Position numbers and translations under genes: made by a program. Positions 31-9,457 of a DNA stretch of 64,000 nucleotides are shown here, one piece after another. Numbering within the stretch: the stretch's first letter is position 1; every line of letters begins with the position of its first letter. The notes beneath the pieces are model-generated. The model saw only the letters and a program-made list of their open reading frames with translations, made no database searches and was not told the origin of the DNA. The stretch comes from Candidatus Melainabacteria bacterium. GTDB lineage: Bacteria > Cyanobacteriota > Vampirovibrionia > Obscuribacterales > Obscuribacteraceae. The DNA lies in contig RXJR01000024.1 in the NCBI GenBank assembly GCA_003963305.1, positions 1 to 64,000 on the forward strand. The letters are read 5' to 3'.

Positions 31-1026
31 TTTACGTCGCTCGTGCAGCCACCGCCACTGAGTGGCACAAACAATAAGTTGACCAATCTGACGAACACAA
101 TAAACTCAGCAGCGCACCGAAAACAGCAGCAGCTTCAATCGTCGAAACACTTGCAATCTCCCCAGGCGCAAGTTGGACAAGCGCTTGCCAATCAAAGTAG
201 CCAACGACTCTCTCTTGTTGGTCAACCTGTAACCAGACACACGACACCACTTTCAGCGCCACTCCCACCCGAACTTTCGCACGCGAATGTGCCGCGCAAG
301 GTACAGTGGAACGGTAACTGCGGTCGAATCAGTCCGCGCGATATCTTCGTTATCATGCTCGTCAACCCACTCATGTGGCTTATGGTAAATTTCGGTTCCA
401 ACGCCCTGGGAATCGATGCGCAGCTTGCAGCGCATGCCGTTACGGTGCCGGCCGTCGTCACCAACGTGGACACTAACTTAAGCTCAAAAAATTACAGAGT
501 GGTTGATTACAAATACACATTCAACGGCAAGGTCTATCACCAATCAGAGGAGCGCAGCATTAGTGCTCCCGAGTATACGAAGGGAAGTACTTATCCAATC
601 GCAGTTCTGCCCTCAAACCCGACAATAAGAGAGCCACTGGGTGCTTCACCCGGCAAAAAGCTTAGCGTGGATAATACATTGTTCGCGCTAATGGCACTGG
701 TCAATCTTATCATTCTGACAGCACTACTTTCACCGGCGCTCTGGCAAAGAATGCTGGCAAGAACTGGACAGGCCTTTAGAGCCAGAGTCGACAGTACTCG
801 AGTACTCGGCGAGAAGCTTTGCGTGGCAGATTTGAGCTGGCTGATGAACGGTTCGACGGTTCGTCGAACCATTCAGATTTCAAAAGACGAGTACTTCTCC
901 TTATGCGCTGGCGACACAGAGATTATTCTGTGCGACAAAAACGCAAACAACGTTGTGCTGTATCGCTTCTGCCGTTACAACGCAGTACCGCCCAGGGCGC
1001 CGGCTATAACAGTAATCAATCCGTAG
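1..1026 (+). CDS. DUF3592-like two-TM membrane protein, 5' truncated by window edge
   Basis: The reading frame is open from base 1. A GTG at 43 is the first internal start codon, but the poly-Asn codons upstream are in the same frame, so the gene probably begins outside the window. The N-terminal hundred residues are low complexity, rich in Asn, Gln and Ser. A first membrane segment lies near residues 100-125 counted from GTG 43, followed by an extracytoplasmic domain with alternating V/Y strands and a YxxGxxYPIAVLPSNP stretch, then a second membrane segment near 225-245 and a cytoplasmic tail. Two helices flanking a beta-rich domain that ends in a LPxNP-type motif is the DUF3592 arrangement. 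Function is unknown. Its 3' end overlaps the convergent trpA by 11 bases. Confidence 0.65.
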   Translation, partial: NNNNNNNNNNFTSLVQPPPLSGTNNKLTNLTNTINSAAHRKQQQLQSSKHLQSPQAQVGQALANQSSQRLSLVGQPVTRHTTPLSAPLPPELSHANVPRKVQWNGNCGRISPRDIFVIMLVNPLMWLMVNFGSNALGIDAQLAAHAVTVPAVVTNVDTNLSSKNYRVVDYKYTFNGKVYHQSEERSISAPEYTKGSTYPIAVLPSNPTIREPLGASPGKKLSVDNTLFALMALVNLIILTALLSPALWQRMLARTGQAFRARVDSTRVLGEKLCVADLSWLMNGSTVRRTIQISKDEYFSLCAGDTEIILCDKNANNVVLYRFCRYNAVPPRAPAITVINP

Positions 1027-1846
1027 AAACTGTAGCCAATTTTTCAGTGCAGGCGTCAGCCAGATCTTTGAAGAGCTCAGCCAGCTTAACGCTGAACTGG
1101 TCACCCGATTGATTGACGACTTCAATAACTCGAGAGCCGACTATGACACCGTCGACTCCAACCTCAAGCAATGCTGTAGCAGTTTGCTTGTTGGAGACAC
1201 CAAAACCAGCACAGATGGGCAACGGAGATTGGCTCTTCAAGCGTCCGATTAATGACTTGAGATTGGAAAGATTATTGGCAGACTTGTCTGTACCGGTGAC
1301 GCCCAATCGAGACACGAGATAAATGAAGCCACCAGCATTAGTGGCAATCTTAGCCAACCGCTCTTCCGTTGTTACTGGTGAAACGATAAATATCAAATCA
1401 ACATCGTTGGCTTTTGCGATCGGCAAGACCTCGTCCGCACTCTCAACTGGCAGATCGGCAATCAAGACTCCGTCTATTCCTGCAACTTTTGCCTGTTGGA
1501 AGAAAGCCTCCACGCCAAAAGCCAATATGTTGTTGTAATAGACAAGAATTCCAATCGGAATCTCTCCATCTATTTTTCGCACTTCACTGATCAAGAAAAA
1601 AGCATCTGCTGTCTTGAAACCAGACTCGAGCGTGTCGAATGCCGCCTTGGCAATTACCGGACCGTCAGCAACCGGGTCGCTAAAAGGAAACCCCAGCTCC
1701 AGCGCAGATGCACCAGACTCGATCATCGTTTTAATAATGGCTAAGGACTTTTCCTTGTTCGGCCAACCCAGCACCGTGAACGGCATAAACGCCTTCACGT
1801 TTTCCGTTTTGAGCTTCTCGAAACGTCTCTCGTAACGCTTACTCAT
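1016..1846 (-). CDS. trpA: Tryptophan synthase alpha subunit
   Basis: Cleaves indole-3-glycerol phosphate to indole and glyceraldehyde-3-phosphate; the indole is channelled to TrpB. TIM-barrel protein of 276 residues from the ATG at 1846, close to the usual 265-270. The catalytic glutamate and aspartate are visible as Glu50 (in ELGFPFSDP) and Asp61 (in VADGP), equivalent to Glu49 and Asp60 of the Salmonella enzyme. Later barrel motifs [15 protein letters not shown] and CAGFGVSN are present. The frame stays open 19 codons upstream, but those codons lie inside trpB. ATG 1846 overlaps the trpB stop as ATGAGTAA, which suggests translational coupling. Last gene of the trp operon. Confidence 0.96.
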
Positions 1847-3005
1847 GCCTGAGAACCTCCGCCAGATCTTTGTCACCGCGACCGGATAAATTGATGAGCA
1901 CACGACTGCCAGGTTTCAACTCCAGGCAAAGCTTCTTTGCATACGCCAGGGCATGAGCGCTCTCAAGCGCTGGAATAATGCCCTCTCGCCTCGACAATTC
2001 ATTGAATGCAGCCAGTGCTTCTTTGTCGTCGACTGAAACATAGCGAGCGCGATTGATCTCTTGCAGGTAAGCGTGTTCAGGGCCGACAGAAGGATAATCG
2101 AGCCCGGCCGCAACGCTATGAGCCTCGATGATTTGTCCATCTTCATCTTGCAAAACCATGCTCTTCATGCCATGCAAACAACCCGGCTTGCCTTTGCTCA
2201 AGACAGCACCGTGTTTGGTGCTAGACAAACCATGCCCACCCGGTTCAACGCCAATCAATTTAACATCTGCATCATCCAAAAACGCAGAAAACATGCCGAT
2301 CGCGTTGGAACCACCGCCGACGCAAGCGATCACGTAGTCTGGCAATGTCTGATAGCGTTCGAAAAATTGTTGACGCGCCTCTCTGCCGATAATACTCTGG
2401 AAGAACTTGACCAGTGTCGGGAATGGATGCGGACCAGCAGCTGTTCCAAGCAAGTAGTGCGTATCGCCGAGGTTGCTTATCCAGTCGCGCAGCGCTTCGT
2501 TAATGGCATCCTTGAGCGTCTTGCTTCCTGTTGTGACCGGATGCACCGTCGCTCCCATCAATCTCATGCGCTGAACGTTGGGCTGCTGTCTGGCAATATC
2601 GACCTCACCCATATAAATTTCTGTCTGCAAATCGAGCAAAGCACCTGCCATGGCACATGCGACACCATGCTGCCCAGCTCCTGTCTCGGCAATGATGCGC
2701 TTCTTGCCCATTGATTTAGCAAGCAGCGCTTGCCCCAGGGCATTGTTTGTTTTGTGCGCGCCACCATGCAGCAGGTCCTCACGCTTGAGAAAAATGTCGG
2801 CGCCCCAGAGGCGAGAAAGATTTTTGGCATAGTAGAGAGGAGTTGGACGTCCTGCATAATCTCGAAAGAGATTGCCGAGTTCGCCCATGAAGCCTTTATC
2901 TTCCTTAGCTACAAGAAAAGCCGACTCCAATTCTTCCAGCGCCGGCATGAGCGTTTCGGGCACATAAACGCCGCCGTAAGTACCAAAATATCCAAGCGTC
3001 TTCAT
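1839..3005 (-). CDS. trpB: Tryptophan synthase beta subunit
   Basis: PLP enzyme that condenses indole with serine to make tryptophan, in complex with TrpA. 388 residues, usual length for TrpB1. The PLP lysine is Lys85 in [12 protein letters not shown], the phosphate-binding loop is GGGSNAIG, and the C-terminal LSGRGDKD motif is present. The start ATG at 3005 overlaps the trpF stop by one base (TGATG). Trp operon, sixth position. Confidence 0.97.
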
Positions 3006-3667
3006 CAGGAAATTGCCTCATTGACCAGATTCGCACCAGTTCCAAAACTATCTTTGACGGCATCGCAGAATGCGATCATCTTGTCCATCGCTTTCAGCCC
3101 GGGAGCAGTTTCGACACCAGATGCAACATCTAGTGCATAAGGATTAAGTCGGTTCAAAACCCGCCTCACATTCGTGTGATTCAACCCACCTGCAAAGAAG
3201 TAGGGGCGGCTCACATTCAGACTTTCCACGAGTTCAATTGCTTCATCGAGCCATTCAGAGAAATCCAAATCTTTCGGCTTATCAAAAAGTATGTAAGAAC
3301 AAGACTTGTACGCATCTATTAGACGTTCCAGATCAAGAGCCTTGCTGCCAGCCTGCAACTCGATTACCTTAATCACCGGCATTTGCAACGTTCGGCAAAA
3401 ATCTGGTGACTCCGCTCCATGAAGTTGAATAAAGTCAAATTTGTGTATTGAGGCTATGCGCTTGATCTCATCAAGCGAGCTGTTCTTAAAGACAGCAACA
3501 GTCCTGGCGCGCCCCGCAATTGCCTGCGAAATATCTGCGGCAGCAACTTCATCGACTTTACGGGCGCTGCTGTCGACAAAAATCAAGCCCAGATATGTCG
3601 CTCCAGCAGTTATTGCATTCAAGGCATCGGTCGAATTGGTGATGCCGCAGATTTTGACTAGAGTCAT
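3005..3667 (-). CDS. trpF: Phosphoribosylanthranilate isomerase
   Basis: Amadori isomerase converting phosphoribosylanthranilate to CdRP. A 220-residue TIM barrel with the N-terminal VKICGIT motif holding the catalytic Cys7, and the C-terminal phosphate-binding motifs [10 protein letters not shown] and DVASGVET. The usual central loop LLDxxxGGTGxxFDW is altered: the sequence reads [15 protein letters not shown], with the likely general-acid Asp kept but the glycine-rich part missing. Start ATG 3667 overlaps the trpC stop as ATGA. Confidence 0.94.
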
Positions 3668-4455
3668 GATACGACTCCTGCTTTCGGCTGCAAACTCACA
3701 AACTCTGATAACAAAGCATCCATATTGTCACTCTTCATGAGAGCCGAACCGATCAAAAAATTTGAACAATAGGGAAGCAATCTCTCAATGTCTGCTCGCG
3801 CTAAAATTCCGCTTGCGGAAATTAAAATCGTACCTGCCGGTATGGACGCCGCAAGACGCTCAGTCGTGCTCAGATCCATCTGGAATGTGCCTAAATCACG
3901 ATTGTTAATCATCATGATAGTTGGTTTGACTCGCAAGGCTCTTTGCACTTCTTCAGCCGTCTGCACTTCAACAACGGCATCCATTCCCAGGGAAGTGATG
4001 CACTGGTAAAGGCTGCGCAACTGAGCGTCGCTGAGAATTTTCACGATCAGCAAGACCGCACTGGCACCAGATTCCCGAGCTTCAAAGCACTGATATGGTG
4101 TAATCACAAAATCTTTGCAGAGAGTAGGTAACTGGCTTTTACTATTGACTGAAGACAAGAGTTCAAGACTGCCGCCAAAGTATTTGGCATCAGTCAACAC
4201 AGAAATTGCTCTGGCGTGGCGGCTGTAACAATTGATTATTTCATCAACATTGACTTGCTCGCGCAATACGCCAGCCGACGGCGATTTCGGTTTGAGTTCG
4301 CAAATCAAGTTCACCCCGGGCTGATTTAGCGCAGCAGCAAATTCGTGATTTGCCTTAGCAACACGCAGTCGGATTGAATCGAGCTCACGTCGCCGCATGC
4401 GCTCAGACAATTCGGATTTCTTATTCTCAACGATTTCAGCTAGCGAACCAGGCAT
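3664..4455 (-). CDS. trpC: Indole-3-glycerol phosphate synthase
   Basis: Closes the indole ring by decarboxylation of CdRP. The frame extends upstream to 4578, but ATG 4455 is chosen because GGAGGG lies just upstream with a short spacer and the resulting 263 residues match the family. The active-site motif CELKPKSPSAG carries Glu53 and Lys55, and later strands LCKDFVITPYQ, INNRDLGTFQMD and ISASGI follow the IGPS pattern. It overlaps the end of trpD by 20 bases. It is not fused to TrpF, unlike in enteric bacteria. Confidence 0.95.
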   Translation of the reverse strand: MPGSLAEIVENKKSELSERMRRRELDSIRLRVAKANHEFAAALNQPGVNLICELKPKSPSAGVLREQVNVDEIINCYSRHARAISVLTDAKYFGGSLELLSSVNSKSQLPTLCKDFVITPYQCFEARESGASAVLLIVKILSDAQLRSLYQCITSLGMDAVVEVQTAEEVQRALRVKPTIMMINNRDLGTFQMDLSTTERLAASIPAGTILISASGILARADIERLLPYCSNFLIGSALMKSDNMDALLSEFVSLQPKAGVVS

Positions 4456-5395
4456 AAGCCCTCCGGCATTCCTCATATTTAGCCGCCACAGCGCCTGTGA
4501 GCAGAAGCTCTTTAGCCAGAGCCACGCCATCGTCCATGATGCCGACCTTATCCGCCACAAGGAATCCGGCAGCGGCATTGGCCCAGACCAAATTCATGAA
4601 GTAAGGCTCCGCGCTGCCGACAAGAACCTGGTGAAAGACTTCGTGGCTGTATTCAGGAGTCATAATGTCCTGATCTTCCTCGATGTCATCAACAGGTGGC
4701 ACAGTCATCGTCTCCGCCTTGCCATTAAAGATGTGAATATAACTACTGGTGGTGCAGGGATCGAATTCATCCAGCCCCCGCTCGGATCGCACCACAATTG
4801 CCCGCTCGGTAAACGAATCCGAAAGCAAATAGTCGGCCACCAGCCGCTGGATCAGTTCATCACTCGTACCCATGACGCGCCTTTTTGGATTGAGCGGATG
4901 CAGCAGGGGACCAATCGAGTTGAAAATACTGGGACCCGGCAAGGTGCGCCGAATTGCTGACAGTTTCGCCAGCGCCGGATAGTAATGAGGGGCGTAGAGA
5001 AAGACCAGCCCAACATTATCAAGCAATTCATTGATATGCTCGTAAGGTATAGAAGCGGGTATGCCCAGAGCTTCCAACAAATCGAAACTGCCGCTCAGAC
5101 TGCTCGAGGCTCGATTGCCGAACTTCGCCACTCTAACGCCACCAGCAGCCAGCACAAAGGCCACTGTTGTCGATGTATTGAAGTGAGGTAATCCGCTCCC
5201 GCCAGTGCCACTGCAATCAAGAGCATCTGTCGCTCCGTCGAACTGCAGAGCACATTTTTCTTTCAGCGATCTGATGAACGAGGTCAATATGCGCAAGTCG
5301 ATTCTGTCGCTGCTCAAATCGATCAAAACCTGTCGAATCTTGTCGTCAGGCAGTTCGCAATCGACCAGGCTGGTTATGGTATCTTCGCTCAGCAT
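4436..5395 (-). CDS. trpD: Anthranilate phosphoribosyltransferase
   Basis: Transfers phosphoribose from PRPP to anthranilate. 319 residues, a little shorter than the usual 335-345. The PRPP/Mg region reads DCSGTGGSGLPHFNTST, followed by VAKFGNRASSSLSGSFDLLEALG, which is diagnostic. The second metal motif is GLDEFDP. The canonical GTGGD loop has Ser in place of Asp. Start ATG 5395 overlaps the trpG stop by seven bases. Not fused to TrpG. Confidence 0.94.
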   Translation of the reverse strand: MLSEDTITSLVDCELPDDKIRQVLIDLSSDRIDLRILTSFIRSLKEKCALQFDGATDALDCSGTGGSGLPHFNTSTTVAFVLAAGGVRVAKFGNRASSSLSGSFDLLEALGIPASIPYEHINELLDNVGLVFLYAPHYYPALAKLSAIRRTLPGPSIFNSIGPLLHPLNPKRRVMGTSDELIQRLVADYLLSDSFTERAIVVRSERGLDEFDPCTTSSYIHIFNGKAETMTVPPVDDIEEDQDIMTPEYSHEVFHQVLVGSAEPYFMNLVWANAAAGFLVADKVGIMDDGVALAKELLLTGAVAAKYEECRRAYAWFAS

Positions 5396-5979
5396 TTGTC
5401 GATGAAATTCTCCAACATCTTCTGCCCTTGCGGCGTACCAATCGACTCAGGGTGAAACTGAACTCCATAAAGACGGTCAGATTTGTGCTGCAAGGCCATG
5501 ATCAGCCCCTGACCTTCCTCTTGCGCTGTCACGGTTATTTCGACAGGCACTGTGGACAGTTCAGCAATCAGAGAATGATAGCGCATCGCCTCGAATTCAT
5601 CCCCGATACCATCGAAAAGCGGTGAAGTGCTCTTCACTCGAATTTTACTTGTCTTTCCATGAATGATCTGGGGCGCCCGAACGACTTTGCCACCGAGATG
5701 ATGCACAATGCCCTGATGCCCCAGGCACACTCCCAATACGGCTGATTTCAGGCTCTTGCGATTCAAAATTACGTCTTTGCAAACGCCGAAGTCCGAATCG
5801 TTTCCGGGGTGTCCGGGACCAGGCGAGAGCACGACATGGTCCGGATTCAAGTTACGAAGCTCTTCGAATGTGATCTCGTCATTGCGAAATACTCTAATCG
5901 GCTCCGAGATAAGAGGTTGCAACATCTGGAATAAATTGAAAGTGAACGAATCATAGTTGTCAATGATTACCAGGCTCAT
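5389..5979 (-). CDS. trpG: Anthranilate synthase glutamine amidotransferase subunit
   Basis: Class I glutamine amidotransferase of 196 residues that supplies ammonia to TrpE. Motifs in order: IDNYDSFTFNL at the N-terminus, LSPGPGHPG oxyanion region, GVCLGHQGI with nucleophile Cys85, and VQFHPESIGT with the catalytic His and Glu. Such subunits can also serve PabB; the position between trpE and trpD supports the Trp role. The start overlaps the trpE stop as ATGA. Confidence 0.96.
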   Translation of the reverse strand: MSLVIIDNYDSFTFNLFQMLQPLISEPIRVFRNDEITFEELRNLNPDHVVLSPGPGHPGNDSDFGVCKDVILNRKSLKSAVLGVCLGHQGIVHHLGGKVVRAPQIIHGKTSKIRVKSTSPLFDGIGDEFEAMRYHSLIAELSTVPVEITVTAQEEGQGLIMALQHKSDRLYGVQFHPESIGTPQGQKMLENFIDKC

Positions 5980-7481
5980 TTGCTGCTCACCTCCGCATAT
6001 TTAACGGCTTGCAGCAAGCTCTTCGCCTTATTGCGGGTCTCTCGGTACTCCATTGTCGGATCGGAGTCATAGACGATTCCCGCCCCAGCGTTAACGTGCA
6101 CCTGATTGTCTTTTACAAGCGCTGAACGAATGGCAATCGCGCCGTCCATGTTTCCAAGCAGGTCAAAATAACCCACTGCTCCGGAATAAATGCCACGCTG
6201 CTCCGGCTCCAATTTCGAAAGTAACTGCATGGCGCGGATTTTAGGCGCACCAGATACAGTACCAGCAGGAAAACAACTGCGAAAGGCGTCGAAACAAGTC
6301 TTTTCTTTAGAGAGCACGCCGTATACTTCGGTGAACAAATGCATTACGTGCGTATATCTGGTCAGACAGGCGATCTCACCGACTTTGACCGTGCCGGCGG
6401 TGCAGACTCGCCCCAGATCGTTTCGGCCCAGATCGACAAGCATGCGGTGCTCCGCCATCTCCTTCTCGTCGGCCTTGAGCTCCTGGGCCAAACGATGATC
6501 GGCATCGTCGTCAACACCGCGCGGACGAGTGCCGGCAATGGCACGCAGCAAAACATGTCCGTTCTGAGAGCGCACAAATGTTTCGGGCGATGATCCCAGA
6601 TAGACGAAGTCAGGACATTTTAGAAAGTATGCATAGGGTGATGGGTTGGTGGCCTGCAGCGCGCGATAAATATTGATAGCAGGAATAGAACAAGGCGCAG
6701 AGAACCGCTGCGAGAGAACAATCTGGAAGGCCTGACCCTCGGCGATAAATTCTTTCGTCGCGGCTACGGCATCTGTAAATTGCTTCTCGCTGAATGGACC
6801 GGTGACGTTATGAAAGATCTGTTCTTCATTTAATGCCTGCGAAGGAATCTCTTGCGGCGGCAACTTGACCGGCGAGAGAGCCTGCTCCAGAAGCTGCCTG
6901 GCGTGCGCCTCTCCGCGATGCGAAACAAATGAAACTTTTCGATATTGTTGGTCGAAAATTACTACCGAATCGTACAATCCATAACGGGCGTCTGGCACCT
7001 CGTATGGCGCAGATTGCTGACGCGGGATATTCTCCAGTGCCGTAACCACACCGTAGCCCATATAACCAACCAGACCGCCGATGAAGGGCAGCTCGAGCTT
7101 CTGTATGATCGAACCTTTCAAGAATTTTCGCAGCTCTTCCTCGCTGCCGAACGTAGACTTTACGAATTCATCCACCTGCAAACGTAAAAGCTCAATTGGA
7201 TCGACCGCATCGATAGTGCTCACTTGCCCGCGATGATCGGCGGTCTCAGCCACCCCATCCTTTAGAGAGATAGTGCGAATCGGATCGATCCCGACCAGTG
7301 AGAAACGCGCTAACCGTCCGTCGCCTTCGGTACTCTCAAACAAAAATCCGTCTTTCGAGAGCTGACTGAGGTTGTGGAAAACAGAAACAGGCGTGCCAAA
7401 GTCAGACGCGACGGTGATAACGGCAGTATTGATAGCGGTTTTGATGTCAGATTCCAGATTCTGAGTTCCTGATTTGTTCAT
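5976..7481 (-). CDS. trpE: Anthranilate synthase component I
   Basis: Makes anthranilate from chorismate with TrpG ammonia; first enzyme of the branch. About 501 residues. The N-terminal FESTEGDGRLARFSLVG region corresponds to the LLES-type tryptophan feedback site. The C-terminal chorismate-binding domain has IVLSQRFS, GSSPETFVR, IAGTRPRG, LVDLGRNDLGRV, FPAGTVSGAPKIRAM and NAGAGIVYDSDP. A GTG at 7493 is in frame, but AAGGAAG overlaps it and is well placed for ATG 7481, so 7481 is preferred. Transcription into the gene is controlled by the attenuator directly upstream. Confidence 0.96.
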   Translation of the reverse strand: MNKSGTQNLESDIKTAINTAVITVASDFGTPVSVFHNLSQLSKDGFLFESTEGDGRLARFSLVGIDPIRTISLKDGVAETADHRGQVSTIDAVDPIELLRLQVDEFVKSTFGSEEELRKFLKGSIIQKLELPFIGGLVGYMGYGVVTALENIPRQQSAPYEVPDARYGLYDSVVIFDQQYRKVSFVSHRGEAHARQLLEQALSPVKLPPQEIPSQALNEEQIFHNVTGPFSEKQFTDAVAATKEFIAEGQAFQIVLSQRFSAPCSIPAINIYRALQATNPSPYAYFLKCPDFVYLGSSPETFVRSQNGHVLLRAIAGTRPRGVDDDADHRLAQELKADEKEMAEHRMLVDLGRNDLGRVCTAGTVKVGEIACLTRYTHVMHLFTEVYGVLSKEKTCFDAFRSCFPAGTVSGAPKIRAMQLLSKLEPEQRGIYSGAVGYFDLLGNMDGAIAIRSALVKDNQVHVNAGAGIVYDSDPTMEYRETRNKAKSLLQAVKYAEVSSK

Positions 7482-7510
7482 GGTAGGTTGCACTTCCTTT
7501 TATCCGAGAC

Positions 7511-7555
7511 AAAAAACAAACGACCGCAAGCTCCATAACAGGTAAGCTTGCGGTC
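7511..7555 (-). terminator. trp operon attenuator (terminator hairpin, segments 3:4)
   Basis: Read on the minus strand, GACCGCAAGCT (7555-7545) and AGCTTGCGGTC (7532-7522) form a perfect 11-bp stem with a 12-base loop, followed at once by GTTTGTTTTTTG (7521-7510). This is a strong intrinsic terminator placed 30 bases before the trpE start, in the leader of the gene it precedes rather than after a gene. Segment 3 also takes part in a competing antiterminator, so it is an attenuator. Confidence 0.92.
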
Positions 7556-7650
7556 AATGAATTCGGTTTGGTGTTCGAAAGCGACTACCAACCGGGCATA
7601 AGCTTACCTGGCTGTTGCGACCAGCGCCACCAACCTTTAAAGCCAGGCAA
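7539..7650 (-). promoter_or_regulatory. trp attenuator competing RNA segments 1:2 and 2:3
   Basis: Segment 1, TTGCCTGGCT (7650-7641, minus strand), can pair with segment 2, AGCCAGGTAA (7613-7604), over 10 bp with one G-U. Segment 2 in the form CAGGTAAGCTT (7610-7600) is exactly complementary over 11 bases to AAGCTTACCTG (7549-7539), which includes the 5' arm of the terminator. The first three Trp codons of the leader peptide (7632-7621) lie between segments 1 and 2. A ribosome stalled there would mask segment 1 and favour the 2:3 antiterminator. Without stalling, 3:4 terminates. Confidence 0.88.
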
Positions 7651-7671
7651 ATTTGTCTCGAGTTGGATCAT
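7585..7671 (-). CDS. trpL: trp leader peptide, 28 residues, four Trp
   Basis: A short reading frame beginning ATG 7671 and ending TAG 7585-7587. It encodes Trp at positions 14, 15, 17 and 28, the core being GWWRWSQ. A weak Shine-Dalgarno (CGGAAC) lies just upstream. It sits before the attenuator in the classical arrangement: leader codons, antiterminator, terminator, trpE. The peptide has no enzymatic role; ribosome stalling on its Trp codons when charged tRNA-Trp is scarce would allow read-through. The same frame is open further upstream, but only this segment has the expected position and composition. Confidence 0.88.
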   Translation of the reverse strand: MIQLETNLPGFKGWWRWSQQPGKLMPGW

Positions 7672-7712
7672 TGTTCCGAGCAGTGCTTTCCGGTTTCTAC
7701 CTTCGAGCTGCC

Positions 7713-7740
7713 ATGGTAGCACAAGGGTAGAGAATGGCAA
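7713..7740 (-). promoter_or_regulatory. Candidate promoter for the trp leader
   Basis: On the minus strand TTGCCA (7740-7735) is separated by 16 bases from TACCAT (7718-7713). An overlapping alternative is TTGAAA (7751-7746) with TACCCT (7729-7724), also 16 apart. Both lie between the end of the TPR gene at 7799 and the leader ATG at 7671, where a trp promoter is needed. Neither is a consensus match and no operator was recognised. Confidence 0.35.
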
Positions 7741-7798
7741 GCTGTTTTCAACTTTTGCAAAGTTAATGACTGTCTTGAGAAGTTTACGGGGCACCCGA

Positions 7799-9457
7799 TT
7801 ACGGAACGAAGTAGCTGACGATCCATAACGCGCCGATGAACAAGAAGACAAAACCAATGCGCGTCCCCATCGAAACTCCATTGTTGCGCTCCCCAGCAGC
7901 CTTGCTTGCCCGTCCCATGAGGAAAAACATAAACGCCATACCAATACAAAAAATTGGTGTGAAATAATGCAGCAACCAGATCGGTGTATTACTCGGCAGA
8001 CGCACGATGCACAATTTGGGAGGTCTGCCGGCTTGGGAAGCGTTGATAGGCTCCGGCAAAAACTGTTTACCGTTGCTGAATGCCACTAAATAGATCGTTC
8101 CGGGAACGGAGCCTGCAATGAATTTGCTGTTGCGATCGAATGCGTGAGCAAAGAATTTACGCACTTCGCCGCCGGGCAATTTTTCAATCGCGCGTAAACA
8201 GTGGATACCACCGCCATACGGAGCCGCTTCTCTCAGCCATTTTCCATTTTCAGCAGACTCGAGAATTTTCTCGAGCGGTAAATTGTTCACAGGAACGTCG
8301 ACAAAATCCTGCACATTCTCGCTGCCACTCTCGAGCCGATCGATAGAGGGAGTCTCAGGTCTGAGGCTGACGGGATTCTGCGATAGTTCTCCCAATTGAA
8401 TTTCGCCCTGACGGCTTGGATATTCGCGTCGCTGTTGAAACCAGGAGCTGGCAATCTTCGAAATCAGTTCAAGCTGGCGCACCACCTTTAGCTCAGGTCC
8501 GTTCTTAGCGTATAGAACCGTACCGTCCTCGCGTTGCAAACCAAGGGGCGTCTCTTCGAACCAGATTTCTCTGTTCAGCAGCGAGCTCAGAATGGACTCC
8601 TTGAAGTCCATCAGATCTGGTCCCATGGCGGTGACAGTGGCAACAAAGGTTTGATTTCCAACTTTGTAGGTCGGGTCACCATTTGCCGAAATAACAAGGT
8701 CAATCTGACCGTCCGAAGTCTTGTATGCAGTGCCCTTCAGATGATTCAGTTGTGTTGGTTTCGTTGAACTGGTGTTCAATACATTGAGCATCATGAAACC
8801 ACAGAAAATCAAAACACCGACGACAATGAGCGACATCACAACGCCACTGGCTCGCTGCATCGAAATCAGCAGGCTCTGCATTGCATCGCTTTTAGTTCCA
8901 TCTTTCTTCTTGCCCGGCCGCGAACGTGGAAGATCCGCTGGAGGTGTTGGAGGTTCGACGTCTTTGAAGCGACTGGAGCGAGTTGCACCTGTCCTGACCG
9001 GCGCCGACTCAATACTTTCGGATGGAAGAGCCTTCACTTCAGGCAAAGGTCTGTTCAATGTTGCCATAGATGACTGCGACATCGTGTTGGCGCGTCGAAA
9101 TAACGTCTCGGCATCGGCGTCGAGTCCGAGCTGCTGATAAGTCGATGCCAGACGCAGCACCATATCAATAACCATTGGGTGCTTGCGCCCAAGCACCTTT
9201 TCGCCGATGACGAGCAACCGCTTGTAGTGCGCCATCGCCTCGGTGTAACGGCCCATCTGATAATAAATGTCACCGAGACTTTGCAGGCAGGCGATAGTAT
9301 CGGGATCGCTGGCACCGAAATTGCGTTCCAGCACCTCGAATGCCCTGCGGTAGATAGGCTCGGCAGCACTGTAGTTCTTCTGCTTAAACGCCTGCGCGGC
9401 ATACTCTAACGATGCTACGACATCGCTAAGTTCTCGTTCTGAATCTCCGGCAGGCAT
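7799..9457 (-). CDS. TPR-containing membrane protein
   Basis: 552 residues of unknown function. Residues 14-135 contain three or four tetratricopeptide repeats with the 42-residue spacing typical of kinesin-light-chain-like TPRs (AEPIYRRAFEVLERNFG, TEAMAHYKRLLVIGEKVLG, ADAETLFRRA). A basic Pro-rich linker is followed by a membrane helix near 205-227, an extracytoplasmic domain of about 230 residues, and two more helices at the C-terminus near 485-505 and 530-550. The TPRs probably face the cytoplasm as a protein-binding platform. No catalytic motif was seen. It precedes the trp leader on the same strand. Confidence 0.75.
   Translation of the reverse strand: MPAGDSERELSDVVASLEYAAQAFKQKNYSAAEPIYRRAFEVLERNFGASDPDTIACLQSLGDIYYQMGRYTEAMAHYKRLLVIGEKVLGRKHPMVIDMVLRLASTYQQLGLDADAETLFRRANTMSQSSMATLNRPLPEVKALPSESIESAPVRTGATRSSRFKDVEPPTPPADLPRSRPGKKKDGTKSDAMQSLLISMQRASGVVMSLIVVGVLIFCGFMMLNVLNTSSTKPTQLNHLKGTAYKTSDGQIDLVISANGDPTYKVGNQTFVATVTAMGPDLMDFKESILSSLLNREIWFEETPLGLQREDGTVLYAKNGPELKVVRQLELISKIASSWFQQRREYPSRQGEIQLGELSQNPVSLRPETPSIDRLESGSENVQDFVDVPVNNLPLEKILESAENGKWLREAAPYGGGIHCLRAIEKLPGGEVRKFFAHAFDRNSKFIAGSVPGTIYLVAFSNGKQFLPEPINASQAGRPPKLCIVRLPSNTPIWLLHYFTPIFCIGMAFMFFLMGRASKAAGERNNGVSMGTRIGFVFLFIGALWIVSYFVP

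Follow-up and report, generated by a model that had tools for sequence, protein, structure and literature searches.

The window (the whole stretch of DNA analysed, 64,000 nucleotides) carries on its minus strand a complete trpEGDCFBA operon, in which trpA was assigned by eye; upstream of it, at 7671-7510, we saw a short leader ORF with several Trp codons and four RNA segments whose pairings are mutually exclusive (Table 1).

Table 1. Features of the trp leader region and of the operon downstream (positions in the window)
Feature	Position	Strand	Evidence or remark
Weak sigma-70-like promoter match TTGCCA-16-TACCAT, ~42 nt upstream of leader	7713..7740	-	Match to consensus only; mean 0.2 in shuffles
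Leader peptide ORF, 28 codons, MIQLETNLPGFKGWWRWSQQPGKLMPGW, stop TAG 7587-7585	7585..7671	-	Strand read directly
Segment 1	7641..7650	-	Pairs with 7604-7613, 10 bp including one G-U, duplex -15.7 kcal/mol
Proximal regulatory codons W14 W15 (R16) W17	7621..7632	-	W14/W15 at 7632-7627, W17 at 7623-7621
Segment 2, inside leader ORF	7600..7613	-	7600-7610 exact complement of 7539-7549
Distal Trp codon W28, last sense codon, past segment 2	7588..7590	-
Inner hairpin within 2:3 stem, from PGW codons and CCAAACCG	7564..7594	-	Fold of antiterminator
Segment 3, 5' arm of terminator	7539..7555	-	7539-7549 pairs with segment 2
Segment 4, 3' arm of terminator	7522..7532	-	3:4 hairpin -21.0 kcal/mol
T-rich tract after terminator hairpin, GTTTGTTTTTTG	7510..7521	-
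trpE	5976..7493	-	ATG start at 7481 likelier than GTG 7493
trpG	5389..5979	-
trpD	4436..5395	-
trpC	3664..4578	-
trpF	3005..3667	-
trpB	1839..3005	-
trpA	1016..1903	-	Recognised by eye from sequence; true start probably within ORF

A preliminary description of this locus had claimed a leader of 28 codons with Trp at positions 14, 15, 17 and 28, and direct reading of the strand bears this out. The segment pairings that it gave hold as well: 1:2 extends over 10 bp (one of them the G-U pair), and an inverted-repeat search of 7400-7800 returned exactly two repeats of at least 9 nt, 7539-7549/7600-7610 and 7522-7532/7545-7555, each of 11 nt and 100% complementary; these are the exact 2:3 pairing and the 3:4 terminator stem, the latter followed by the T-rich tract. 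Folding of the leader region gave -70.3 kcal/mol (z = -5.2), an energy equalled by none of 200 shuffled sequences. A consensus terminator scan did not pick up the trp terminator because its loop is longer than 8 nt; the leader has a weak Shine-Dalgarno sequence. Among the features expected of ribosome-mediated trp attenuators, the locus has a leader ORF (predicted to be translated), a 3:4 hairpin with a U-tract, and the alternative 2:3 and 1:2 pairings.

TrpE was looked for in 60 relatives; 36 genomes of the window's family were searched, and 24 of them had it. Reading of the upstream DNA showed, before trpE in 23 of the 24, a short leader in which two Trp codons adjoin (mostly WWxW) and a terminator, usually together with an antiterminator; the family terminators often have the arm ACCGCAGGCTTACCC. 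The sole TrpE-bearing family genome without a Trp leader was G010 (L152, G010:C26:73000-77000). The hexamer TGGTGG is invariant in all 23 aligned leaders, which had been collected by TGGTGG itself. From these 23 leaders a covariance model, R1, was built; its matches in the training genomes are circular, and the initial ORF search was independent of R1 but selected for Trp pairs. R1 added five family genomes (G064, G068, G069, G070 and G072), in each of which the leader was read, and gave no Trp-type match in any of the 12 family genomes without TrpE. The trp attenuator is family-wide, and two further families of the class have related elements.

Across the relatives 89.9% of cells in the terminator alignment are paired, and five of the nine pairs have changed on both sides; the terminator's covariation score was reached by none of 500 shuffles and dropped sharply once the partners were slid. 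Segments 2 and 3 change in concert as well, e.g. CCGGGTAAGC/GCTTACCCG, GGCAAGC/GCTTGC, GATAGGCC/GGCCTGTC and GACAGGCC/GGCTTGTC. The mean 2:3 complementarity was 19.4 for a genome's own segments versus 15.6 for cross-species combinations, with none of 5000 permutations as good; this result holds with one genome per genus, some kinship effects remaining in the test. The 2:3 pairing is weak in some relatives (L004, L014 and L018), and conservation of segment 2 could partly stem from its coding sequence, though the peptide varies there too. Alignment of related genomes, proposed in the preliminary description, has thus shown Trp codons conserved, the terminator kept and the antiterminator co-varying; relatives devoid of Trp codons or of complementary segments did not turn up, save for G010 with its missing leader.

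The textbook example of coupling between transcription and translation is ribosome-mediated attenuation. At this locus, with charged tRNA-Trp scarce, a ribosome would stall at W14/W15/W17 and cover segment 1, leaving segment 2 free; segment 2 would pair with segment 3 once the latter is transcribed, no terminator would form, and RNA polymerase would enter trpE. With Trp plentiful, the ribosome would pass through segment 2 up to the stop codon; segment 2 would first be covered and would then re-pair with segment 1 behind the ribosome, so that 3:4 could form and transcription would end near 7510. Our guess is that a slow ribosome held at W28 would stay on segment 2, and that this may make the switch sharper.

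Folds computed for given ribosome positions are consistent with this order of events. The antiterminator fold, inner hairpin included, has -25.8 kcal/mol. If the ribosome sits on the Trp codons before segment 4 has been transcribed, the 2:3 stem forms around the inner hairpin (-27.0 kcal/mol); once the ribosome has reached the stop codon, 3:4 alone remains (-21.0 kcal/mol). When all the RNA is present, 3:4 wins at equilibrium for both ribosome positions, that on the Trp codons included, so kinetics must decide which way the switch goes; E. coli trpL gave the same pattern under the same procedure, including the equilibrium preference for 3:4, which again makes the choice a kinetic one. Given the identity of the operon, the conserved Trp codons, the terminator and the co-varying antiterminator in relatives, we hold with high confidence that the element attenuates transcription of the trpEGDCFBA operon in the classical, ribosome-mediated way, which is the four-segment reading originally given to it.

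The attenuator could be real and its released leader RNA or peptide could also act in trans, as has been reported for peTrpL of Sinorhizobium meliloti (PMC7298713). Family leaders exceed the E. coli leader (14 residues) in length and their tail, PGK..PGW, is conserved in many genera; the conserved tail is, however, accounted for by RNA pairing of segment 2 and of the inner hairpin, and we consider an additional role of this kind improbable. Still less probable is control by Trp through some other leader device, with the short ORF incidental. A T-box responding to uncharged tRNA-Trp and a TRAP-type protein are both known for trp operons of Firmicutes; however, no T-box or other Rfam family was found at threshold in the window or in 13 related loci, and it is Trp codons in an open frame that are conserved. 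The best match in the region was in fact to RF00513 Trp_leader, full-length and below threshold (21.6 bits versus a cutoff of 41; the E. coli control scored 93.1 bits), and none of the 13 related loci passed this cutoff. It is hardly credible, finally, that the hairpin is a mere terminator of the upstream gene (same strand, ending at 7799) beside an accidental Trp-rich ORF: short WW ORFs are common indeed, TGGTGG being present in 404 of them on both strands of 2.45 Mb (the window and most of the relative G004), but the combination of WW leader, terminator and 2:3 complement is found again before trpE in at least 16 genera and before a trpS copy, and WW leader and terminator vanish along with trpE. 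Within the same 2.45 Mb a terminator-like hairpin lies within 170 nt of 5 of the 404 ORFs, and the three strongest of these five belong to the leaders of the window's trpE, of G004's trpE and of G004's trpS; the attenuator is not a chance find.

A classical attenuator of this kind has its counterpart in E. coli trpL (RF00513), with which it shares the leader ORF with tandem Trp codons, the position before trpE, the 1:2, 2:3 and 3:4 pairings, the U-tract and the sequence of folds obtained for the different ribosome positions. The layout differs because segment 2 lies inside the leader ORF: it starts 23 nt before the leader stop codon in the window, whereas in E. coli it begins 5 nt past the first base of the stop codon. 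The window leader also has 28 codons versus 14, a segment 1 that precedes the Trp codons, and an extra Trp codon past segment 2. A ribosome that translates the whole ORF would thus pass over segment 2 and clear it, and 1:2 could re-form behind. Of 27 family leaders, 24 have segment 2 within the ORF, as do all 13 leaders of another family, f5; the short leaders L127, L135 and L136 have the E. coli-like layout (for L127 segment 2 was badly chosen by the automatic procedure, and a separate comparison of pairings also puts segment 2 after the stop). A Trp codon at or past segment 2 was found in 16 of the 27 family leaders and 13 of the 13 f5 leaders. Stalling at a Trp codon past segment 2 would cover segment 2 and should favour termination.

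Attenuators of Corynebacterium and Streptomyces, which precede trp operons, trpS2 and leuS (PMC1262725), are similar in their double or triple Trp codons, in their terminator and antiterminator hairpins, and in having trp operons and a trpS copy as targets; the phylum is different. His leader peptides found before hisS paralogues in Bacilli (PMC2965389) lie outside Proteobacteria and Actinobacteria and represent leader-peptide attenuation of aminoacyl-tRNA synthetases, as do the trpS and Asp-tRNA synthetase leaders described below; they differ in amino acid, gene and phylum.

The window's family includes Cyanobacteria bacterium REEB67, of the phylum Cyanobacteriota, and we take the lineage to be non-photosynthetic from the Melainabacteria placement of such genomes. 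The preliminary description had called a trp attenuator unusual for Melainabacteria; the non-photosynthetic Cyanobacteriota host stands, as the family member REEB67 shows, but the attenuator is no isolated oddity, since it is family-wide. Surveys place ribosome-mediated attenuation mainly in Proteobacteria and Actinobacteria. In 2010 leader-peptide systems were known in these two phyla and nowhere else, apart from the Firmicutes case of that paper itself (PMC2965389); a study covering the four attenuator families then in Rfam considered amino acid attenuators to be perhaps of gamma-proteobacterial origin, with few transfers (PMC3766115); as of 2016 there were no reliable data on attenuation in cyanobacteria (PMC4833913). 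In the open-access literature we found no earlier report of ribosome-mediated attenuators in Cyanobacteriota, and prior notice elsewhere is possible. The element is of a well-known kind in a phylum new to it; its layout is a variant, and it belongs to a broader group of related leaders. That a co-varying attenuator runs through a whole family in a lineage sister to the photosynthetic cyanobacteria, alongside the other specificities considered next, argues for an older or repeated origin of such systems and implies that transcription and translation are tightly coupled in this lineage.

R1 was applied to 240 genomes from the class and 386 from the phylum. There were no matches outside the class among the 386 phylum genomes; as R1 is narrow, absence elsewhere in the phylum is weak evidence. 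Several R1 matches (L162, L167 and L169-L171, and likewise L149 and L151) were discarded as plain terminators or unrelated sequences. Within the class, a Trp leader ...PQWTWWRLQNKRLQDWFLR stands before a DAHP synthase-trpE operon in family f9 (L153:1463-1692(+)). In f5, leaders such as MPNLNLNTQSWWHLFDKTGLLSWQ were found directly before a gene for a membrane-like protein in ~14 genomes (L155:1486-1649(+), L154-L168); these leaders carry the distal Trp codon, and their 1:2 hairpin is visible by eye. The protein (~400 residues) had no significant relative in Pfam, NCBIfam or PDB, and TrpE-like matches in f5 genomes, where checked, were at most weak; it is possibly a Trp-responsive uptake protein.

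Trp leaders of the window's family are found before other genes too. Relative G004 has one with WWQ, MTFTQTTQKQIWWQLGTNKVQACVIQINSA, before an extra trpS copy (L142:1560-1740(+)), and similar trpS copies are present in relatives G002 and G026. The window's own genome has a second WWRW leader with a terminator (L141:2128-2277(-), G000:C1:172127-172261), which precedes a GNAT acetyltransferase gene and a lactonase-like gene.

Weak R1 matches led to leaders rich in Asn and Asp, e.g. ...ASFNNNNNSDDNRL (L143:1335-1522, L144-L147 and L150), which show 1:2 and 2:3 (GCGGTCGGA/TCCGACCGC) pairings and a terminator. The gene after them encodes a non-discriminating Asp-tRNA synthetase (AspRS; NCBIfam name aspartate--tRNA(Asn) ligase). 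A second model, R2, built from six of these leaders, had matches in 32 of 50 family genomes, all 32 directly upstream of that genome's AspRS gene copy (codons were read in a minority of R2 matches); in the window's own genome the match is at G000:C1:504409-504521(+). An Asn leader in this position would fit feedback from tRNA-dependent Asn synthesis.

Leaders with other aromatic codons precede DAHP synthase. In G004 a Phe/Trp leader, MYNKTFFFWNFNEVHLQ (G004:C15:65717(-), L280 near 5717), has a 10-bp antiterminator with 2:3 = GGTTCATCTG/CAGATGAACC. Two tandem aromatic (Tyr/Trp/Phe) leaders, each with its own terminator, are present in G023 and G032 (MTTFNYYWYKKVCLG then MTFNASPTTTWYSYWTRGRPR, and MTTFNAYYWYKKVRLG then MNFNAYWYSYWTRGRPG; L009:809-1130(-) and L007:780-1130(-)), divergent from trpE; their alignment was too poor for a covariance model. 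A Tyr-rich leader in G004, MIYNNSQPYYYYSYPQGVG, with a strong terminator 25 nt before a TenA/PqqC-like gene (G004:C8:24813(+), L248 near 4813), is a candidate, as its 2:3 pairing is poor and the gene was recognised by eye. Besides the trpE and trpS leaders, a scan of 2.39 Mb of G004 gave few convincing ones, those before DAHP synthase (Phe) and the TenA/PqqC-like gene (Tyr).

One could speculate, and we do so tentatively, that a broad network of ribosome-mediated attenuators, old in the lineage, exists in non-photosynthetic Cyanobacteriota and responds to Trp (trp operon, trpS, acetyltransferase gene, membrane protein), Asn/Asp (non-discriminating AspRS), Phe/Trp/Tyr (DAHP synthase, with tandem leaders) and perhaps Tyr (TenA/PqqC-like gene). 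In such a network the trp leaders would have a read-through layout, with the ribosome translating segment 2 and the distal Trp codon being a second checkpoint to enforce termination when starvation is mild. Sensing codons would name the amino acid answered by a gene without known relatives, such as that of the f5 membrane protein; thus metabolic information on uncultured bacteria may be obtained from leader codons.

Records from Bacteroidetes-like, Balneolaceae and rumen bacteria (L042, L079 and L106) also have, ahead of trpE, short ORFs with WWW and strong hairpins; since such leaders occur in other phyla, trp attenuation probably extends beyond the classical ones.
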